Part shown: positions 1,258 to 10,505 of the stretch, piece by piece
Position numbering within the stretch: the first letter of the stretch is position 1
How the letters are laid out: each line of letters opens with the position of its first letter
The notes under the pieces: generated by a model
The model's database searches: none
Told to the model about the DNA's origin: nothing
The model's input: only the letters and a program-made list of their open reading frames with translations
Translations under genes and position numbers: made by a program
From: Faecalimonas sp.
GTDB taxonomy: Bacteria; Bacillota_A; Clostridia; Lachnospirales; Lachnospiraceae
DNA length: 10,545 nt
Direction: 5' to 3'
Assembly (NCBI GenBank): GCA_026169575.1
Contig: JAPFCT010000068.1
Location: 1-10,545 of the forward strand

Positions 1258-2034
1258 TCAGCAAAGCTGACTTCTCCGGTATGCGGCCTTTATTTTCTCA
1301 GCCCCCGGCAGTTTTTCCTTTCCTTCTGCGCGCCTTTCCTGCATATATATCTCAAGTTCTTCCATCAGTTCCCGGTGCACTTTCGGATATACTGTATTTT
1401 TTAGCAGGAAAAGTTCATATTCCTCCCGCGTATATGCTTTATATGCACAGTAAATATACGCTTTGACGATTGAAGGTTCCTTATATGTCTGGAATGCTTT
1501 TTCATACATCTCCATCGCCTCCCGGTACAGAAACTGCCTGCCGTATGCTGATCCGAGACACGCATACACTTTTCCATAAAAAGCATCTTCCACTGAATCA
1601 TCTTGTTCTCCATAAAGAATCGACTGATATACAAGGATCGCATCTTCAAATTCCCGGTTTTCCAGAAGATTGTCCGCCTTATATTTCTGCCGCTCGATCT
1701 CTTTCTGATTCTTCAGCCGGTCGAGGATATTCTGGATCTGCTGAAGTTCCCCCGCCGTATAGATGGAAGAACTCGACAGGATCCGCATGACAAAACGCTC
1801 TTCGGAACTGTGCTTCTGCAGCATGAGCCGGAGCTGGTCTGCCAGTCTGCAAAGCCCAAGTTCTGTCTCGATCCAGTCACAGAGCCTCTCATTGACGATC
1901 GTATAGTCGATCAGATAAAGATTATTGGAAAGATAATAGCAGAGTTCCTCCAGCGTATAAATCCTGCAGTGGATCCGCGACACTTCATATGGCTGTTTTG
2001 CACGTCTTTTATTACATAGTATCAAACTGCTCAT
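1258..2034 (-). CDS. TPR-like helical protein, third gene of the Hsp70-like cluster
   Basis: A 258-residue protein of unknown function that I predict to be all-helical and soluble: no signal peptide or membrane segment is visible. The N-terminal part (about 20-75) is helical and rich in Leu, Tyr and Cys. Residues 95-120 look like a charged helix leading into tetratricopeptide-like units. One unit is at about 117-143 (ADNLLENREFEDAILVYQSI), a second at about 152-185 (ACLGSAYGRQFLYREAMEMY), and a weaker one at 188-212. The tail is highly charged. TPR units usually bind peptides or partner proteins; no catalytic motif is seen. The ATG at 2034 has AGGAGG 5 nt upstream and overlaps the end of the preceding gene by 23 bp, which suggests translational coupling and fixed-ratio production with the Hsp70-like protein. 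Acting as a TPR co-factor of that protein is inference from context. Confidence 0.85.
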   Translation of the reverse strand: MSSLILCNKRRAKQPYEVSRIHCRIYTLEELCYYLSNNLYLIDYTIVNERLCDWIETELGLCRLADQLRLMLQKHSSEERFVMRILSSSSIYTAGELQQIQNILDRLKNQKEIERQKYKADNLLENREFEDAILVYQSILYGEQDDSVEDAFYGKVYACLGSAYGRQFLYREAMEMYEKAFQTYKEPSIVKAYIYCAYKAYTREEYELFLLKNTVYPKVHRELMEELEIYMQERRAEGKEKLPGAEKIKAAYRRSQLC

Positions 2035-3304
2035 TTCTTCCTCCTAAATAGATCGTATGCTCTTTCACAAAATCGGTCGCTGGGAAAAATTCTCCGAATC
2101 CAACATCTTTAAATAAGATCTTACATACATTTTCTTCGACAAAGATCACTTCCACCTGAAGCCGTATAGTATATTTTGCACGCCTCGGAAGTTCATCTAC
2201 TTTCACGCGCTCGATTCTGGCTGTGCCGGTCAGAAGTGATTCTACTTTTATTTCAATGTCGCTGGTATCTTCCAAAAGAACCTCCCACTGTCCGTCGCCT
2301 TCATACCAGTGTCTTCCCCACGGCACAAGAGGATACCACTCTTCTTTTCCGTGGTGACGCATCTGAATGGAGATCTGCTCTTTCAATTTACTTTCATCCA
2401 GATATACCGGTGCTTCCTGATCTTTTGTCTGCTCTTCCTGCCCGCGCTGGTACGCTGTATAGCACGCACCTTTGCTGTAAAGATTATTTCCAAGAAATGC
2501 CCTTCTTCCGTTGCACAGCACTTTCAGCGAATTCGGATACCAGTTATTCTCAAATCCTTCTCCCATCAGAAAGACAGAAGAGACGATTTTTTTCTCAAAT
2601 ACACTCTCGATAAACTTCTGAAAACGGAAATCTGCCATTTTTGCCTGCTCCACATTGAGCACCGGATAGACTGCCTTTAGTTCCTCCATCTGGGCACTTG
2701 CCACTTCATCAACCGTGACAAAGGTCTGTTTCTTCTGTTTTGCACCCGACGCGATCTGGCTTAACATATATGCTTTGATCTGCCGTTTGTCACAATAAAA
2801 CAATGCGGACTCATACTGCCAGAGTTCCTTCGGCTGGTAAAACATGAAGTAACAGTAGCTTTCCTTATAATCCTGCACATGGATCCGCTGTCGTTCAATC
2901 CCCATCCGCTGACCGATCCCTTTTAACATCCTTGCAATGTCCGGGCTCATCTGCGGCACACAAAAGACAATGGAATCGATCTTGTCAAACCGCTGAAGTG
3001 TCAGGCGGATAAACTTTGCCAGAAGCCAGACTGCATCATAGGTTCTCCGTCCGAGATGGATTTTCATCCCATGCATACTTTTCGTAAGCAGATCCGATGC
3101 CATCGCACCATCTTTTTGTTTTGCATGTGCACGCGCTTCTTCCCCGATATACCATGTATCATTTTTACAACCGATCACAAGCGGGATTTGATATTCACCG
3201 GATTCATTTTTCACCGCCTCCGGTTCATGCTGCGTTTCATTATAGTAGCTGATCTGGCATCCTTCCTCACTCAGATCATATCCAATCATACTGCCTTGTC
3301 CCAT
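2012..3304 (-). CDS. Divergent Hsp70/actin-fold protein (resembles DUF5716)
   Basis: A 430-residue cytosolic protein with the layout of an Hsp70 nucleotide-binding domain plus a beta-rich tail. IGYDLSEEGCQISYY (7-21) sits where the phosphate-1 hairpin should be. YQIPLVIG...YIGEEARAH (38-60) matches the Hsp70 'P-S-V-V...VGEEAK' stretch. IVFCVPQMSPDIARMLKGIG (112-131) matches 'VITVPAYF...AGR', followed by VQDYKESYCYF in place of 'NEPTAAALAYG'. VFLMGEGFENNWYP...LYSKGACYTA (244-284) matches the adenosine motif and the final 'GAA' helix. The phosphate-2 motif (DLGGGT) is replaced by YCDKRQIKAYML (170-181), so ATP hydrolysis is doubtful. Residues 300-430 look like a beta-sandwich containing KDVGFGEFFPATDF. 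I recall the family as DUF5716, unverified. The start is set at ATG 3304, 8 nt after AAGGGG; a GTG at 3313 overlaps that site and is less likely. The gene begins 15 bp after the stop of the giant protein gene. Confidence 0.85.
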   Translation of the reverse strand: MGQGSMIGYDLSEEGCQISYYNETQHEPEAVKNESGEYQIPLVIGCKNDTWYIGEEARAHAKQKDGAMASDLLTKSMHGMKIHLGRRTYDAVWLLAKFIRLTLQRFDKIDSIVFCVPQMSPDIARMLKGIGQRMGIERQRIHVQDYKESYCYFMFYQPKELWQYESALFYCDKRQIKAYMLSQIASGAKQKKQTFVTVDEVASAQMEELKAVYPVLNVEQAKMADFRFQKFIESVFEKKIVSSVFLMGEGFENNWYPNSLKVLCNGRRAFLGNNLYSKGACYTAYQRGQEEQTKDQEAPVYLDESKLKEQISIQMRHHGKEEWYPLVPWGRHWYEGDGQWEVLLEDTSDIEIKVESLLTGTARIERVKVDELPRRAKYTIRLQVEVIFVEENVCKILFKDVGFGEFFPATDFVKEHTIYLGGRNEQFDTM

Positions 3305-3312
3305 AGTTTTCA

Positions 3313-3318
3313 CCCCTT
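3313..3318 (-). promoter_or_regulatory. Ribosome binding site deciding the start of the Hsp70-like gene
   Basis: AAGGGG on the minus strand lies 8 nt before ATG 3304. The upstream in-frame GTG (3311-3313) overlaps the site and has no other Shine-Dalgarno sequence in front, so the ATG is preferred. Confidence 0.6.
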
Positions 3319-3319
3319 A

Positions 3320-6300
3320 TCAATAAATTGGAAACAGAAGTTCTGCCGTCTGCTCTTCCTCAGCAAACCGCTCCGCCAGTTCCTGTTTTTCATTTTCCCG
3401 GATCAGCTGATTGATTCTCATATATTTCCCGATCTCATTTTTCCGGTCTACCTTGCCGCAGGATGACTTCGCAGTTCGGATCTCTCCATCTTCCCCCGAC
3501 TCTACAAAATAATACCGGAGTTCTTCTCCTTCAAAGAGGATCATCGATTTTACATACACATTTTCATACACCGGTCCAAGTACTTCCTGACGGTACTCCC
3601 CGGTCTCCTCCCCATCCCGGATGAGCTGGTAGCGGAAAGTTACCTTTCCCTTCTTCTTTGCATAATACGATACCATCGTCTTATCATACAGCTGAAGTTC
3701 TTTTAACCACTCTCTGCTGTACTTCAAAAAGAACGGGAAATAAATCTGACGGATACTCAGCTCGCGAAGGAATGTCAAAAGCATGTTTTCCTGCGTCTCT
3801 CCCCACGCGTGATCCGCATAATATTGAAGCGCCGCGATCTGGCACACTTCCGGTATCACAGACTGGTGATGGTATTCCATGCATAAGATCTCCATCACCT
3901 CATCCGCAATCTCTCTTTTTTTCGTGACAAACTCTCTGCACGCGTAAACAAGATATGCCCATTTCAAACGATAATACGGTTTGCCATAATAATAATCCAA
4001 AAAGATCTCCGGTTCTCCGAACATCTGCTCCGAAAACAGCATCTGTGTCAGGATGCGCTCCGCAAGCTGGAACGTCTGTATCTCATATTCTCTTGCCGCC
4101 TTCCACAAACGTTTCATATCCCTTGTCGGTCCGCAGTAATAGTTTGCCAGATACGTAAGGACTGCTTTATCATAATAATCTTCCAGGAACAGAGAGAAGG
4201 CAAGATAGGTAAGAAAATCATTTTCCGCGTAATTGTCTTCTCTGATCTTTTTGCTGCACAAATGGAATACTTCCTCATGTTCATATTCTTCCATCCCGTT
4301 CTCCTGCACCAGCTCAAATGTCAGCGGCACATGGTTCTGTTCATCCTCCGTCTCCTGTTCCTGCTTCTGCCTGCACAGCTCCAGATAATATTTATCATAA
4401 AAAAGGCGTCTGCTTTCATAAGTCACCGACTCTATATAATGGATCCCGTTTCTGCCTTCCCAGACAATGCGGTCTCCCTTAGAATACAGATGGATCTGTG
4501 CTTTTCCATCGATCACGGAAACTCTGTTCGCGACCTCTCCTTCCGCATTGATCACGATCACTGATTTCATCCGGTCAGACTGGACTGTCACTTCGTAGAC
4601 ATGACAGATATCATTTAAAGCTTCCCGGCGTTCCGGCGTCAGATTCTCTTCATTCAAAAAACGTTTATATATGATCCGCAAAGGCTCTGTAATATGTCTT
4701 CTCTCCAGTTGGGCAAGTGCAAACCGTTCCATCTTCTCGCGGTACTGGCCGTACAGTTCACTTGTCTCATCCACATGCATGATCACATTTGCGTAAAGCA
4801 CCGCAAGCTTCGTATAATCCAGAACAGAACCATGCAGAAAATATAAATAGATCGGCTTCGGAAGCGGTTCTTTCGCCTTCTCTCCGTGGATCGTGATCAT
4901 ATAAGATTCGTAGAGCTGGGCAATCTTCAGCCCTTCCTTCACCGCCCGCTCATACCATATGAAATATTCTCCATCCAGCCGGCTTCCTTTGATCAGCATT
5001 GTGCAGACTGCATTCAGGATCATCGGATCCGGATATTGTTCATATGCTTTCCCGAGTATCTGATAGATATCTTTATCAAATCCTTTCAGCTGTGTCGCGA
5101 GATTTGCGATATACAGTGCAGCTTCTTCTGTAAGGAGTCCATATTTCGCAGCAAAAGAAAATACCCGGATCTCAAATTTTCCAAGCTTCTTAATAGATTC
5201 CGGATGCTTTCTGTAACAGCGGTAAGCCAGCAGGTAAAATACGACACTGTTTGCCCCCTTCTGATACTGCTCCTCGAGACGTAAGATCTTATCCTGCCCT
5301 CCCTGACAGAGTTCGTCCAATTCTAACAAGACACATAAAATCTGCCATGAATCCTGATTCTTTGCATACATCCTCCGGATATCTTCGACTGTCTTTTTCG
5401 TATATGCCTCTTCTCCCCTGCAGATTGCAGTCAGGTAGAGATAGTATGCATCCATCTCAAACTTCTTGTTCAGAGAAAATCTGCTGTAACTGTACTTATC
5501 AAGCTTTTCCCTGGCTTCTTTTTTCTTACCTTCCATGACTGCAAGCTGCGCCTGGAACAAAAGATACAGATCATTCTCCGGATCCTGCTCCTGCAATTTC
5601 AGAACATACTTCCCTGCTTCTTCGATCCATACTTCTCTTTCAGATCTTCCAGCCTCACATTCTAAATAGGAAAGTAAAAGCTGTGCCCATTCTTTTGTCT
5701 CTTTTCTGTGATCGTTTGGTTTTACCGCATTTTGGGAAACAACTACCGTATATACCAGCGTCTCATATGGTGTGCGGATCGTGATCTCTCCGTAGTTCTT
5801 TCCGTTGTGTAGTTTTTCATCGTCGATCACATATTCCAGCTGGTACCGGCTGCCCACGAAATCTTCTGTGGAAAAACGATTCTGCACAAGGCAGAGAAAC
5901 TCCCCTTTTGCCTCCACAGTCATTTCCATATAGCCCCATGTATTTTTTGTGATCCGGATCACTTCTTTTTTAGAAGTATCCAGATCTGAGAAAACCTCTT
6001 TTTCTTCCGTCAAAGTCAGAAAAATGCGTTCTTTCTGCTTTGTACCGACTAAGAATTCTTCCAGCCCCTGCTCGTCCAGAGACCACTTTCTCATATTGCT
6101 GTATAAATTTCTCCACCGCTTCTCTTCATATTTCAAAATCTGATAGAAATCTCTTGACCGGAACAGTCTTGCTGCTTCCAGATAGTCTTTCTCTGCCAGT
6201 CTCCGGAAGCTTTCCATATCCTGCACTTTGCCGACAGATGTCATGACATACGGCTTCTCTATGATCGCAGTAAACGGAAGTTCAAATTCTCCCCCGCTGC

Positions 6301-6604
6301 ATACGATCGTAAAATGCCCTTTCTCTATCTGTCCCGGACGCATCCCGGACGCATCGTATGTGAAATGGATCTTGATCTGATGCCCCTCAAATCCAGGTTC
6401 ACTGCAATGCATGCGAAAAGAAGAGGCATAGACAAGACCTCTTACGTCTCCCTCTTCTTCGTTCTCTATAAAAAATTCTCCATGATAGACTTCGCCTTCC
6501 CCGATCTTCATTGAGATCTTCGTTTCAGGAAGACGGATCCTCGGCTGCACTGCCCGAAAATCCCCCTCTGAGAAATGTTTGATTTTATTCTTCAAATCGT
6601 TCAC
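3320..6604 (-). CDS. Giant Ig-like/helical-repeat protein (resembles DUF5717)
   Basis: A 1094-residue protein of unknown function with no signal peptide or membrane segment, so probably cytosolic. The layout from the sequence: a first beta-sandwich-like domain at about 20-117 (alternating strands, with YDASGMRPGQIEKGHF at 83-98), a helical linker at 125-190, a second beta domain at about 190-295 ending in GEITIRTPYETLVYTVVVS, then a long region of helix-turn-helix units like TPR repeats. A short beta insert follows at about 690-750 (VIVINAEGEVANRVSV), then more helices, a beta domain around 985-1060 (VTFRYQLI..., ILFEGEELRYYFVE) and a charged C-terminal helix. No nucleotide-binding or hydrolase motif is visible. 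I recall similar Lachnospiraceae proteins as DUF5717, unverified. The GTG at 6604 lies inside AGGTGA (6601-6606); TTG 6595, 5 nt after that site, is an equally good start and would remove three residues. It is the first gene of the cluster, about 40 nt after the promoter; a scaffold role is inference. Confidence 0.87.
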   Translation of the reverse strand: MNDLKNKIKHFSEGDFRAVQPRIRLPETKISMKIGEGEVYHGEFFIENEEEGDVRGLVYASSFRMHCSEPGFEGHQIKIHFTYDASGMRPGQIEKGHFTIVCSGGEFELPFTAIIEKPYVMTSVGKVQDMESFRRLAEKDYLEAARLFRSRDFYQILKYEEKRWRNLYSNMRKWSLDEQGLEEFLVGTKQKERIFLTLTEEKEVFSDLDTSKKEVIRITKNTWGYMEMTVEAKGEFLCLVQNRFSTEDFVGSRYQLEYVIDDEKLHNGKNYGEITIRTPYETLVYTVVVSQNAVKPNDHRKETKEWAQLLLSYLECEAGRSEREVWIEEAGKYVLKLQEQDPENDLYLLFQAQLAVMEGKKKEAREKLDKYSYSRFSLNKKFEMDAYYLYLTAICRGEEAYTKKTVEDIRRMYAKNQDSWQILCVLLELDELCQGGQDKILRLEEQYQKGANSVVFYLLAYRCYRKHPESIKKLGKFEIRVFSFAAKYGLLTEEAALYIANLATQLKGFDKDIYQILGKAYEQYPDPMILNAVCTMLIKGSRLDGEYFIWYERAVKEGLKIAQLYESYMITIHGEKAKEPLPKPIYLYFLHGSVLDYTKLAVLYANVIMHVDETSELYGQYREKMERFALAQLERRHITEPLRIIYKRFLNEENLTPERREALNDICHVYEVTVQSDRMKSVIVINAEGEVANRVSVIDGKAQIHLYSKGDRIVWEGRNGIHYIESVTYESRRLFYDKYYLELCRQKQEQETEDEQNHVPLTFELVQENGMEEYEHEEVFHLCSKKIREDNYAENDFLTYLAFSLFLEDYYDKAVLTYLANYYCGPTRDMKRLWKAAREYEIQTFQLAERILTQMLFSEQMFGEPEIFLDYYYGKPYYRLKWAYLVYACREFVTKKREIADEVMEILCMEYHHQSVIPEVCQIAALQYYADHAWGETQENMLLTFLRELSIRQIYFPFFLKYSREWLKELQLYDKTMVSYYAKKKGKVTFRYQLIRDGEETGEYRQEVLGPVYENVYVKSMILFEGEELRYYFVESGEDGEIRTAKSSCGKVDRKNEIGKYMRINQLIRENEKQELAERFAEEEQTAELLFPIY
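6333..6355. repeat. Perfect 11-bp tandem duplication inside the giant gene
   Basis: CCGGACGCATC occurs twice back to back at 6334-6344 and 6345-6355 (the match extends one base left, to 6333). Eleven is not a multiple of three, so the two copies are read in different frames, as DASG and MRPG on the coding strand. Loss or gain of one unit would break the reading frame near codon 86. Confidence 0.9.
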
Positions 6605-6651: not shown

Positions 6652-6681
6652 ATTATAGCATTATCCCCTATCTTCTTGCAA
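6652..6681 (-). promoter_or_regulatory. Sigma-A extended -10 promoter for the giant/Hsp70-like/TPR cluster
   Basis: On the minus strand TTGCAA (6676-6681) and a perfect TATAAT (6652-6657) are 18 bp apart, and TGC immediately before the -10 gives an extended -10. Transcription would begin near 6645, leaving a leader of about 40 nt before GTG 6604. This is the clearest promoter between the phosphatase gene and the left edge of the window. Confidence 0.7.
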
Positions 6682-7652: not shown

Positions 7653-9644
7653 TTACTCTACGATCTTGTAATATTCTCTGGCAGTCACTATAAAGATTGC
7701 GATATAGAACACCGCAAAGAGGAGAACTGCAGCCCCGGTACAACCAAGAAACAACGTTGTATTTGTAAATCCAAATCCTGCCAGCAGTTTGGTCAGCACC
7801 TTGAAAGCCACTACGATATGGAGAATCGCGCCGCCAAGCGGCAGAAAGAATACAAGCAGGATCTGACTCTTGATCGAAGTTCTTACCTCTTTTTTGCTCA
7901 TCCCTACCTTCTGCATGATCTGATACCGTTCCTGGTCTTCATATCCTTCGGAAATCTGTTTATAATAAATGATCAGTACAGTCGCCATCAAAAACAGTGT
8001 TCCCAGATAGATCCCGATAAATAACAATCCTCCATACAGCTGAAACATGCCTGCCTTCCCTTCCTGCCTCGTCTCATAAAATCCCGGGATCCCGGATGCC
8101 GCGAACTGTCCGTGCAACTCTCCGATTGCCTTTTCACAGTCCTGCTCCCTTCCATTCATATCGAACTGCAGTGTGCAGGAGACACTGGAAGCCTCTCTTA
8201 CAAACTCCTCTGTCATTCCACTTTCCTGATATACCTCCCCAAGAATCGTATTGATCGAGTCCACATCCGGCAAGACTACAAAATAGTTATCTGCCATATT
8301 CTGTGTAATCCCTTCCTCAAGTTTTAATTCTTTTACCTGCTGCACAACACGATACTTATGTTCTCCAAAAGAAATCCTCCCCGGAAGTTCTTTCGTTTTA
8401 TCAGATACATATACAAGCGCCTCATCCTGCGCAAGCGATACCGACATTTCTTCCATCCGGTTATAATCTTCCAGCGGGATCAGATATACCTGACACACAT
8501 CTATCATATCCGACTGACTTGCCTCGGCCTGCCGGAGAAACCGTTCTCCATCGAGCACCGAGACGATTGCCCCGGAATGATATTCCATCATTTTATCTGT
8601 CTCCACATCATATTTCTTACAAATTTCTTCCACCATCTGACGTATCCGCGCATCCTGCTCCGGCGTAGAAAGCCTGCTTATGACCCGGCTCTCACTTGGA
8701 TAGCGGGAACGGATCACATCATCAATTCCAAGATATAAGGATGCTGTCGCTGAGATCATAACAAGCACGATCGTACTTAAAATACAGATATTGGCAAGTC
8801 CTGCCCCATTCTGCTTCATCCGGTAGATCATCCCTGATACCGAAACAAAGTGTTTTGTCTGGTAATAAAAATGTCTGTTTCCTTTCAGTAATTTCAAAAA
8901 CGCAATACTTCCTGCAATAAACAATGCATACGTTCCGATGATCACACAGATCACCGCAAGGAAAAACTTCGGAATTGCCTCCAGCGGCGACTCTGTTGTC
9001 AGCGCAATAGAATATCCCGTCCCAAGAAACAAGATTCCTGCAAGTGCAAGAAACAGTTTTGTTTTCGGTTCTTTTTCTCCTTCTTTCCCTGCCCGCAAAA
9101 GTTCTGACGGGTTGGAAAGACGGATCTGCAGCAGATTATAGCAGAGTGTCAGAGCAAAGATCCCCAAAAACAGCAGAACCGTCGAAGAAACCGTCTCCCA
9201 GTGAAACTCTGCCTCCATCCCGGTTTCAAACCGCAATAATTTCTGCAGGCACAGATACATCAGCTTTTCAAACGTAATTCCTGCAAGAATCCCGCCTGCA
9301 ATACCTGAAAATGCCGTCACAAGCGTTTCCATCACCATCATTTTCGCGATATGCGGTTTCCCCATTCCCAAAATATTATAGACACCGATCTCCTTTTTCC
9401 GGCGTTTCATCAGAAAACTGTTCGTATAAAACAAGAACAGTACGGAAAAAACTACGACGACCGACACGGAGCATTCCAATACGTTCTGCAACGCTCCGTC
9501 ACTGACCGACTTCCCGTTTGCAAGTCCGAGAAGAATATAATACATCATTACCGTCACGACTGCTGTCAGAATGTACGGCACATACGTTTTCTTATTATTC
9601 TTCAGATTGGTCAGAGCCAGCCTGATATAAACTGATCTACTCAC
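7653..9644 (-). CDS. BceB-type FtsX-family ABC transporter permease
   Basis: A 663-residue membrane protein with ten predicted TM segments: about 21-41, 58-78, 105-126, 152-174, 197-215, 226-250, 284-306, then after a domain of some 230 residues three more at about 537-560, 593-612 and 632-655. This 7+3 layout with a large extracytoplasmic domain between TM7 and TM8 is the hallmark of BceB/VraG/YxdM permeases, which sense peptide antibiotics, free their lipid II-cycle targets and signal to a BceS-type kinase. RRKKEIGVYNILGMGK (81-96) and KVGMSKKEV after TM8 are the cytoplasmic FtsX coupling segments. The start is GTG 9644, 5 nt after GGGAGGTGA; an upstream in-frame TTG (9665) would place the start before that site. 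The gene overlaps the ATPase gene by 8 bp (GTGAGTAG), so the two are coupled. The substrate is not readable; peptide-antibiotic resistance is inferred from the family. Confidence 0.9.
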   Translation of the reverse strand: MSRSVYIRLALTNLKNNKKTYVPYILTAVVTVMMYYILLGLANGKSVSDGALQNVLECSVSVVVVFSVLFLFYTNSFLMKRRKKEIGVYNILGMGKPHIAKMMVMETLVTAFSGIAGGILAGITFEKLMYLCLQKLLRFETGMEAEFHWETVSSTVLLFLGIFALTLCYNLLQIRLSNPSELLRAGKEGEKEPKTKLFLALAGILFLGTGYSIALTTESPLEAIPKFFLAVICVIIGTYALFIAGSIAFLKLLKGNRHFYYQTKHFVSVSGMIYRMKQNGAGLANICILSTIVLVMISATASLYLGIDDVIRSRYPSESRVISRLSTPEQDARIRQMVEEICKKYDVETDKMMEYHSGAIVSVLDGERFLRQAEASQSDMIDVCQVYLIPLEDYNRMEEMSVSLAQDEALVYVSDKTKELPGRISFGEHKYRVVQQVKELKLEEGITQNMADNYFVVLPDVDSINTILGEVYQESGMTEEFVREASSVSCTLQFDMNGREQDCEKAIGELHGQFAASGIPGFYETRQEGKAGMFQLYGGLLFIGIYLGTLFLMATVLIIYYKQISEGYEDQERYQIMQKVGMSKKEVRTSIKSQILLVFFLPLGGAILHIVVAFKVLTKLLAGFGFTNTTLFLGCTGAAVLLFAVFYIAIFIVTAREYYKIVE

Positions 9645-10404
9645 CTTGTTCACCTCCCGTAGCAAGAACCGTCAGTGTGTCAGAAATCTTCTGATACATC
9701 TGCTCATTCGACAGATTCCCGCGGTAAAGCTGGTGAAACACCTCTCCATCCTTGATAAACAGCACTCTTTTTGCAGTGCTGGCCGCTTTGATACTGTGCG
9801 TCACCATCAGGATCGTCTGCCCATTTGCATTGATCTCATGGAACAGATCCAGCAGTTCATCTGCCGATCTTGAATCAAGCGCTCCGGTCGGTTCATCTGC
9901 CAGGATCAACTGTGGCTTTGTGATCAGCGCTCTCGCAACTGCCGCCCGCTGTTTTTGTCCCCCGGATACCTCATACGGAAATTTGTTTAAAAGTTTATCG
10001 ATTCCAAGCTGGGCAGCGACCGGCTCCAGACGGCGCGCCATCTCCGGATACTTCTTGCCGGAAAGTACCAGTGGAAGGAAAATATTATCCTGAAGCGAAA
10101 AAGTGTCAAGCAGATTAAAATCCTGGAAAACAAATCCTAAATTCTGTCTCCGGAATGCCGCCATTTCTTTTTCCCTGACCGTTCCCAGATCCCTCCCTTT
10201 CAGAAAGACTTTGCCTCCCGTCGGCCGGTCAAGCGCTGCCAGTATGTTTAGCAATGTCGTTTTTCCAGAACCAGATTCTCCCATGATTGCCACATATTCC
10301 CCTGACTCCACAGAAAAACTCACATTCCTGAGCGCTTCCACCTGGGTTCCGCCAAATTTTGTTGTATAGATTTTTTTCAAATTATTTACTTCCAATAATG
10401 TCAT
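9637..10404 (-). CDS. ABC transporter ATP-binding protein, BceA/MacB-like
   Basis: A 255-residue ATPase that powers the adjoining permease. All nucleotide-binding motifs are intact: Walker A GESGSGKT (42-49), Q-loop Gln94 in FVFQDFNLLD, signature VSGGQ (146-150), Walker B LILADE (166-171), D-loop GALD, and H-loop His203 in THS. The pattern 'FNLLDTFSLQDNI' and the length fit the LolD/MacB/BceA group of FtsX-linked ATPases. The start is ATG 10404, with AGGAGG 8 nt upstream (10413-10418). The open frame continues 30 codons further upstream to 10494, but that stretch covers the predicted -10 box and leader, so the longer start is rejected. It is the first gene of a two-gene operon and overlaps the permease by 8 bp. 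Regulation by a response regulator at the repeats upstream is inferred. Confidence 0.93.
   Translation of the reverse strand: MTLLEVNNLKKIYTTKFGGTQVEALRNVSFSVESGEYVAIMGESGSGKTTLLNILAALDRPTGGKVFLKGRDLGTVREKEMAAFRRQNLGFVFQDFNLLDTFSLQDNIFLPLVLSGKKYPEMARRLEPVAAQLGIDKLLNKFPYEVSGGQKQRAAVARALITKPQLILADEPTGALDSRSADELLDLFHEINANGQTILMVTHSIKAASTAKRVLFIKDGEVFHQLYRGNLSNEQMYQKISDTLTVLATGGEQGE
9650..9658 (-). promoter_or_regulatory. Ribosome binding site deciding the permease start
   Basis: GGGAGGTGA on the minus strand, inside the end of the ATPase gene, lies 5 nt before GTG 9644. Its strength and spacing fix the permease start at this GTG and not at TTG 9665. Confidence 0.75.
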
Positions 10405-10437
10405 ATACGTTTCCTCCTGTCTTTCACTTACAACCTC

Positions 10438-10443
10438 ATTATA
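10438..10443 (-). promoter_or_regulatory. -10 box of the ABC transporter operon
   Basis: A perfect TATAAT on the minus strand, 33 bases before ATG 10404. There is no good -35 hexamer at 16-18 bp (the best are GGCAGA/TGGCAG-like), which is typical of a promoter that needs an activator. Transcription would start near 10431. Confidence 0.55.
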
Positions 10444-10475
10444 CCGGATATCTGTTTCTCTCTGCCATCGTTTTC

Positions 10476-10505
10476 CCTTACAATTCCGACTCATACCTTA
10501 CATTT
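10476..10505 (-). promoter_or_regulatory. Two direct repeats AAWTGTAAGG, probable response-regulator sites
   Basis: On the minus strand AAATGTAAGG (10496-10505) and AATTGTAAGG (10476-10485) differ at one base and start exactly 20 bp apart, two helical turns. They lie upstream of the -35 position, about 45 to 75 bases before the predicted start of transcription, where tandem sites for an activating OmpR-type regulator are expected. A BceR-like regulator is the natural candidate given the transporter downstream, but its gene is not in the window. Confidence 0.45.

Follow-up and report, generated by a model that had tools for sequence, protein, structure and literature searches.

An operon of three genes in Lachnospiraceae as a likely reduced derivative of a multi-Hsp70 machine

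Three described systems stand closest to the operon analysed in this work. Ssz1 has been reported to have no lid, to bind ATP without hydrolysing it and to follow no canonical cycle (PMC7083937). The HSP70/GrpE theme of the GAP1-N2 GTPase systems has been reported as one neighbourhood of HSP70, GrpE, a second HSP70 without a peptide-binding domain, and a beta-repeat (FNIII-repeat) protein fused to DnaJ or tetratricopeptide repeats (TPR) (eLife 2020, PMC7159879). The third system is the housekeeping DnaK/GrpE/DnaJ machine. The window is the whole stretch of 10,545 nucleotides from Faecalimonas sp., and its subject here is an operon encoding protein A (DUF5717), protein B (DUF5716) and protein C, which has TPR-like repeats. 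We have identified a larger operon in the same taxonomic order whose genes all point the same way: A, Hsp70-1, GrpE-domain protein, B, Hsp70-2, Hsp70-3/VWA, C and sometimes U. This is referred to as the full operon, and A-B-C as the reduced form. We consider it likely, with a probability of about two in three, that A-B-C derives from this larger multi-Hsp70 machine by reduction and without its ATPases, and that it serves as an Ssz1-like, non-hydrolysing chaperone scaffold.

Comparing the described systems to the findings in this work, B resembles Ssz1 by prediction, its model also having the Hsp70 fold without a lid and its hydrolysis motifs being lost, and Ssz1 is among the best structural matches of B. 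However, Ssz1 binds ATP, whereas reduced B is without the standard phosphate loops. B also groups with a bacterial operon Hsp70, and no J-protein like Zuo1 of the ribosome-associated complex (RAC) was found with A-B-C. The GAP1-N2 theme is the nearest described neighbourhood found. The likeness lies in the HSP70, GrpE, second HSP70 and beta-repeat/TPR parts, and the difference lies in the GTPase/GAP1 core. The full operon, in contrast, has three motif-complete Hsp70s and one predicted to be dead, and A-B-C is near-universal in one family. The full operon shares Hsp70 and GrpE domains with DnaK/GrpE/DnaJ, but the housekeeping genes are at a locus separate from the operon. Unlike DnaK, the operon Hsp70s of locus L120 have matches that end before the lid (profile position 477-509 of 599) and one of them carries a VWA domain, and the reduced form has no motif-complete Hsp70.

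A and B of the window are clear members of DUF5717 (PF18984/PF18983) and DUF5716 (PF18980), names that are already in databases as "DUF5716/DUF5717 family protein" and for which the Pfam text gives only unknown function. The open-access literature searched did not connect the two families with Hsp70, with one another or with the full operon, and held no description of A-B-C or of the seven-gene operon. The transposon-sequencing literature gave nothing on Lachnospiraceae among the matches listed. The initial annotation had proposed an undescribed Hsp70-like system. The system and its Hsp70 link do appear undescribed, but the two families had been named. "Hsp70-like system" is right by descent, because in related genomes the three genes stand in order within an operon that has three motif-complete Hsp70s and a GrpE-domain protein. 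B, however, is predicted to be catalytically dead, so the three genes alone do not make an Hsp70 engine.

Protein B among the Hsp70 proteins

Both the predicted fold and the tree make B an Hsp70, but one that has lost its residues for ATP hydrolysis. B matches DUF5716 with 348.7 bits, above the curated Pfam cut-off. The Pfam HSP70 profile scores 10.8 bits on window B, below its cut-off of 20.6, and 53.4 bits on the orthologous B of L120, above it; the latter protein matches DUF5716 as well (116 bits). The search of PDB sequences with the profile of B gave a best E-value of 0.26 and DnaK at 0.44, and the full-operon B of L120 reaches DnaK at 5.7e-11. Sequence alone would leave the fold of B open because the PDB sequence matches have E-values of 0.26 or worse. 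The AlphaFold2 model of B (predicted local distance difference test, pLDDT, of 85) consists of an actin-type nucleotide-binding domain (NBD) and the beta part of a substrate-binding domain (SBD-beta), and it ends after the SBD-beta sandwich without the SBD-alpha lid. All 50 best structural matches listed from the PDB are Hsp70-type; families beyond those 50 may also match. The Hsp70-like segments that had been read in this protein from its letters score below threshold but are borne out by the predicted fold, and the model of the 430-residue protein has the actin/Hsp70 fold that had been set beforehand as a test of the proposal.

The common actin-type core and the ambiguous sequence scores would also suit another protein of the actin superfamily, such as a filament former like MreB or FtsA. 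We find this scarcely credible: the model includes the SBD-beta sandwich, the 50 structural matches listed are all Hsp70-type, and the B clade is the sister of Hsp70-2. MreB and FtsA do not appear in that list of the best 50. The placement of B was obtained from the FastTree tree of 205 NBDs rooted on DnaK, where full-operon and reduced B together form the sister group of Hsp70-2 (support 1.0) and reduced B lies inside full-operon B, adjoining L121 (0.999). This sister position suggests that B arose as a tandem copy of an Hsp70-2-like gene and then decayed.

The residues were scored in an alignment of 205 proteins, namely 14 DnaK-class, 34 Hsp70-1, 40 sampled Hsp70-2, 37 Hsp70-3, 40 sampled full-operon B and 40 sampled reduced B. 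Every scored residue is retained in Hsp70-1, Hsp70-2 and Hsp70-3. The standard phosphate-1 and phosphate-2 motifs are present in all 111 of these proteins and in 13-14 of the 14 DnaK-class proteins, and absent from reduced B (0/40) and full-operon B (0/40). Lys70, Thr199 and Asp201 are lost in all 80 B proteins. Glu171 is retained in eight of 40 full-operon B and in none of 40 reduced B. Full-operon B retains Asp8 (38/40), Gly10 (38/40) and Asp194 (39/40), and reduced B retains them in 18/40, 8/40 and 7/40. Gly342 of the adenosine motif is retained in 80/80. B is predicted from these residues to be catalytically dead.

Seven residues are invariant in 23 of 23 diverse, mostly distant reduced B proteins: G251, F254, G282 and A283 on the adenosine side, and D403, G405 and G407 in SBD-beta. 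The adenosine-side residues have been kept despite the lost phosphate loops, as would be expected if the old nucleotide cleft had been re-purposed for another ligand and A-B-C were a sensor of small molecules or peptides and not a chaperone. We regard this as improbable, since the cleft residues may be merely structural and those of SBD-beta are just as invariant.

The seven-gene operon and the direction of change

PF18980 was searched in 196 genomes of the order and had matches in 89. Judged by match strength, 23 of the 89 are of the reduced type, and most of the remaining 66 show a pair of weak matches side by side. Loci were examined from 50 of these 66 genomes and also from two reduced genomes (G499 and G548). 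The search with DUF5717 was positive in 93 of 196 genomes, largely those positive for PF18980. In the full operons Hsp70-1 has about 558 aa, Hsp70-2 about 546 aa and Hsp70-3, with its C-terminal VWA domain, about 690 aa; the GrpE-domain protein mostly has 500-645 aa with the GrpE domain at its C-terminus. The Pfam assignments cover seven proteins from L120 and three from L123, and the other class assignments rest on profiles built in this analysis. The L120 proteins match HSP70 with 263 (Hsp70-1), 215 (Hsp70-2) and 309 bits (Hsp70-3), and among the L120 and L123 proteins GrpE scores 42.5 and 37.6 bits and VWA 39.8 bits.

Counting matches above 40 bits, 29 of the 50 loci are complete, 23 from A to C and six more from A to U. 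The other 21 are partial: one is without a recognised C, and 20 are contiguous pieces in the same order, some ended by the contig. None of the 50 loci has members on both strands. A-B-C of the window is collinear with the full operon minus four genes. Profiles made only from full operons match window A at 1.4e-63, B at 6.8e-44 and C at 5.8e-22; they also match the reduced relatives (A 82/82, B 81/81, C 80/80) and no shuffled sequences. The PF18980 matches in a phylum sample (4/299 genomes) and the PF18983 matches in a class sample (10/291) were all among the positives of the order. These samples are thin, since none of the full-operon genomes is among them, so absence outside the order is not established by them.

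The tree under a mixture model (IQ-TREE) was built from 48 rows with 18 full-operon B, 22 reduced B and eight Hsp70-2. Reduced B forms a single clade (100/100) with L121 as its sister (100/99), followed by L123, L132, L167 and L168 (99/97). Constraining full-operon B to one clade was rejected by the approximately unbiased (AU) test (p-AU 1.7e-5). In the midpoint-rooted tree of A, reduced A groups with L121 and next with L123/L167/L168 (0.999). Loss of genes is favoured because reduced B nests in full-operon B, and in the simplest history Hsp70-1, the GrpE-domain protein, Hsp70-2 and Hsp70-3 were lost once, in the lineage leading to Lachnospiraceae. The Hsp70-1 query at E 1e-60 matched none of 150 family genomes, which is consistent with a single loss; Hsp70-2 and Hsp70-3 were not searched family-wide. 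The same query matched seven of seven full-operon genomes (one being its own) and none of five others.

L121 (G503) is the full-operon lineage nearest the reduced form. Its Hsp70-3/VWA and C are each split into two open reading frames (ORFs; 3860-6384 and 9514-10353) and its GrpE-domain protein is short (279 aa), which may be ongoing decay or an assembly error.

The eight reduced genomes examined have one GrpE each, and four full-operon genomes have two each, the second within the operon. GrpE was found in 93 of 100 family genomes of a wider sample, with more than one match in seven of them. As candidates for a full operon within Lachnospiraceae, the loci with the extra GrpE in G370, G363, G369 and G340 were read, and they have no A, B or C gene; G307, G314 and G348 were not among the loci read. 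The extra GrpE adjoins a different Hsp70 in three of the four, and no Hsp70 was seen in G363. L187, L188, L230 and L231 exhibit another accessory system, in which an Hsp70 of about 510-570 aa is followed by a protein that is J-domain-like by eye and whose HPD position reads SPE, PPE or RPE. L230 and L231 also have a short protein with a GrpE match ahead of the Hsp70.

Conservation, partner proteins and a candidate mechanism

Lachnospiraceae are common gut bacteria. In the family of Extibacter muris (Lachnospiraceae), 195 of 200 sampled genomes have PF18980, each of them once except G431 and G439 (two matches each). The close-loci set comprises the best 80 of 169 confirmed loci, found by conserved peptides of B in named genomes. 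A and B are present in 80/80 of these and C in 79/80, as L007 stops before C. Twenty further family loci (L208-L227) have A, B and C in order on a single strand; B and C share one ORF in L224, and A and B are separated by another ORF in L221. The genes are conserved together, as the proposed neighbourhood check had asked. Over 56 loci with all four genes complete, pairwise identities show correlations of 0.91-0.94 among A, B and C and of 0.67-0.73 with purB, the pattern that mostly vertical inheritance would give.

This distribution bears on a reading of A-B-C as a phage-defence or conflict module. The components of the GAP1-N2 theme are alike, as noted above, but PADLOC gave no match for A, B or C, and a gene set that is near-universal, nearly always single and tracks purB is unlike patchy defence islands. 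No GAP1-N2 was found beside the operon either: PF20013 was present in one of 14 genomes, on contig C9, and the operon of that genome is on C3. The defence reading was rejected on the PADLOC result and the near-universal presence, and we hold it to be very unlikely.

A matches DUF5717 above the curated cut-offs (PF18984, 735.4 bits; PF18983, 295.2 bits). Its AlphaFold2 model (mean pLDDT 82.4; predicted template modelling score, pTM, 0.43) contains a pair of PapD/ASH-type immunoglobulin-like (Ig-like) domains along with two blocks of helical repeats and two small beta domains. In Foldseek the best-matching structures are central-pair proteins of cilia and SPD-2 proteins, every TM-score being low, and the profile search of PDB sequences gave nothing useful for A. 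L126 (G499) has an A of only 853 aa whose N-terminal Ig part is apparently missing (by eye). Window C matches TPR_10 with 21.5 bits, below the cut-off of 27.5, and the homologous C of L120 matches TPR_19 with 72.9 bits, above it. The beta domains and long helical repeats of the 1094-residue protein and the TPR-like units of the 258-residue protein, both claimed by the initial annotation, are recovered in this way, the former in the model and the latter clearly in L120. NCBIfam gave nothing on A and B and only sub-threshold noise on C. A, B and C of the window have no transmembrane-like segment. U, judging from four copies, is coiled-coil-like with two transmembrane-like segments. It follows C in eight of the twenty further family loci and in L127, it is present in seven of the 50 full loci, and it had no match in L001-L080, the closer relatives of the window.

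We infer both the complex formation and the function of A-B-C. A, with its Ig-like and TPR-like arrays, would be the scaffold on which B docks, and C would be a TPR adaptor held to B. The lidless SBD-beta of B might act like Ssz1 as a low-affinity, non-cycling peptide binder or as a structural subunit, and U, where kept, would tether the complex to the membrane. Any ATP-driven step would have been either lost or lent by the housekeeping DnaK/GrpE. One hint toward a single complex comes from L224, where B and C are naturally fused into a single frame of 709 residues (L224:7815-9944).

Several points weigh against the reading of A-B-C as a non-hydrolysing chaperone scaffold left over from the full operon. 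The B-C fusion comes from one genome, client binding by SBD-beta is assumed from the predicted fold, and the pTM of the A model leaves the mutual placement of its domains unfixed. The decay of B is graded, and full-operon B that keeps Asp8, Gly10 and Asp194 may still bind nucleotide. The long branches of L126 and L127 in the tree of B call for caution on the AU test; the longest is that of L126 (G499), where B is divergent. In the tree of A, L121 falls among the reduced sequences at a poorly supported node (0.461), and the tree of C is uninformative, with reduced C as one clade at a support of only 0.373. No J-domain match was found by Pfam in A, B, C or the ten full-operon proteins scanned, and where six full loci have HPD triplets, these belong to Hsp70-2, ValS and Hsp70-3. 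The analogy is thus to RAC without its Zuo1.

A-B-C could instead be a co-chaperone for DnaK-GrpE-DnaJ that brings DnaK to a site determined by A (and U) or stimulates it there, like RAC for Ssb, the lost Hsp70s having been replaced by DnaK. All eight reduced genomes tested have a DnaK-type Hsp70 (one whole and two pieces in G499) and one GrpE, and a dead lidless Hsp70 that works with an active Hsp70 has been described (PMC7083937). The absent J-domain match in A, B and C counts against it and contact with DnaK is only supposed, so this role is doubtful.

A bolder statement is possible at slightly less than even odds: Lachnospiraceae would carry, as a near-universal core system, a bacterial counterpart of RAC in which an Ig/TPR scaffold bears a dead Hsp70 without a lid. 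It would be the remnant of an undescribed seven-gene machine (three active Hsp70s, one dead Hsp70, a GrpE-domain protein, a VWA module and a TPR adaptor) that has shed its motors. The dead subunit, and not the ATPases, would then be the part that could not be spared. The frequency of DUF5716 makes this a core operon of the family without an assigned function, and the Hsp70 link makes DUF5716 and DUF5717, two orphan families, a testable chaperone system. The natural series between the full and the reduced operon reveals what an Hsp70 machine can lose, and it suggests that active paralogues can disappear while a catalytically dead Hsp70 persists. The role of pseudo-Hsp70s becomes directly testable in culturable bacteria.

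Gene layout and neighbours in the window

The positions of the genes, domains and other features are shown in Table 1. A, B and C form a tight operon on the minus strand. The start of A is probably the TTG, which gives 1091 aa, because AGGTG stands about 6 nt ahead of it and the conserved part of A, as read from the sequence, begins there. AAGGGGTG precedes the ATG of B, AGGAGG precedes C, and both genes have a good ribosome-binding site. The gap of 15 bp between A and B, counted from this ATG, and the overlap of 23 bp between B and C agree with the packing noted earlier. The overlap suggests translational coupling.

The promoter-like site upstream of A has 10 of 12 consensus positions and is the top minus-strand match in the region. 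The region has 15 such sites against 10.0 +/- 3.2 in shuffles, and the argument rests on position and not on score because these sites are also common in shuffles.

Table 1. Features of the A-B-C operon in the window.
Feature	Position	Strand	Remarks
ORF A	3320-6604	minus	longest ORF, GTG start at 6604, 1094 aa
Gene A (DUF5717, scaffold-like)	3320..6595	minus	likely TTG start 6595, 1091 aa
A, first Ig-like (PapD/ASH-like) beta domain	6242..6541	minus	residues 22-121
A, second Ig-like beta domain	5729..6022	minus	residues 195-292, AlphaFold2
A, TPR-like helical repeats 1	4604..5719	minus	residues 296-667
A, small beta domain	4406..4600	minus	residues 669-733, AlphaFold2
A, helical repeat block 2	3695..4318	minus	residues 763-970, AlphaFold2
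A, C-terminal beta domain	3455..3685	minus	residues 974-1050, AlphaFold2
ORF B	2012-3313	minus	433 aa
Gene B (DUF5716, predicted catalytically degenerate Hsp70)	2012..3304	minus	ATG at 3304, 430 aa
B, Hsp70-type NBD without standard phosphate loops	2429..3295	minus	AlphaFold2
B, SBD-beta-like sandwich with DxGFG motif, no SBD-alpha lid after	2048..2416	minus	AlphaFold2 and conservation
Gene C (N-terminal domain and TPR-like repeats)	1258..2034	minus	258 aa
B/C overlap	2012..2034	minus	23 bp
Promoter-like site ahead of gene A (TTGCAA-18-TATAAT, TG-extended)	6652..6681	minus	consensus scan only

The operon is flanked by a gene of the tyrosine-phosphatase family and purC (Pfam), and by a further gene that we take to be purB. 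The closest named genome is Faecalimonas umbilicata (93% for B). The neighbours named by eye in the 80 close loci are purB (64), amino-acid ATP-binding cassette (ABC) transporter parts (56-57) and purF (49), with MoxR-like and DUF58-like genes in 17 loci each and transglutaminase-like genes in 22. The neighbour genes vary and indicate no function. In L006:2110-6014 and L024:2349-6539, MoxR-type ATPase, DUF58-like and transglutaminase-like genes are immediately upstream of A. A valS-like gene (by eye) is near the operon in the family loci L211, L222, L223 and L224 and in the full-operon loci L123 and L130, and this shared neighbour hints at an old chromosomal position. The window also has an FtsX-type permease and ABC ATPase pair at 7653-10494, and a permease cluster is near A in 15 of the 80 close loci as well.

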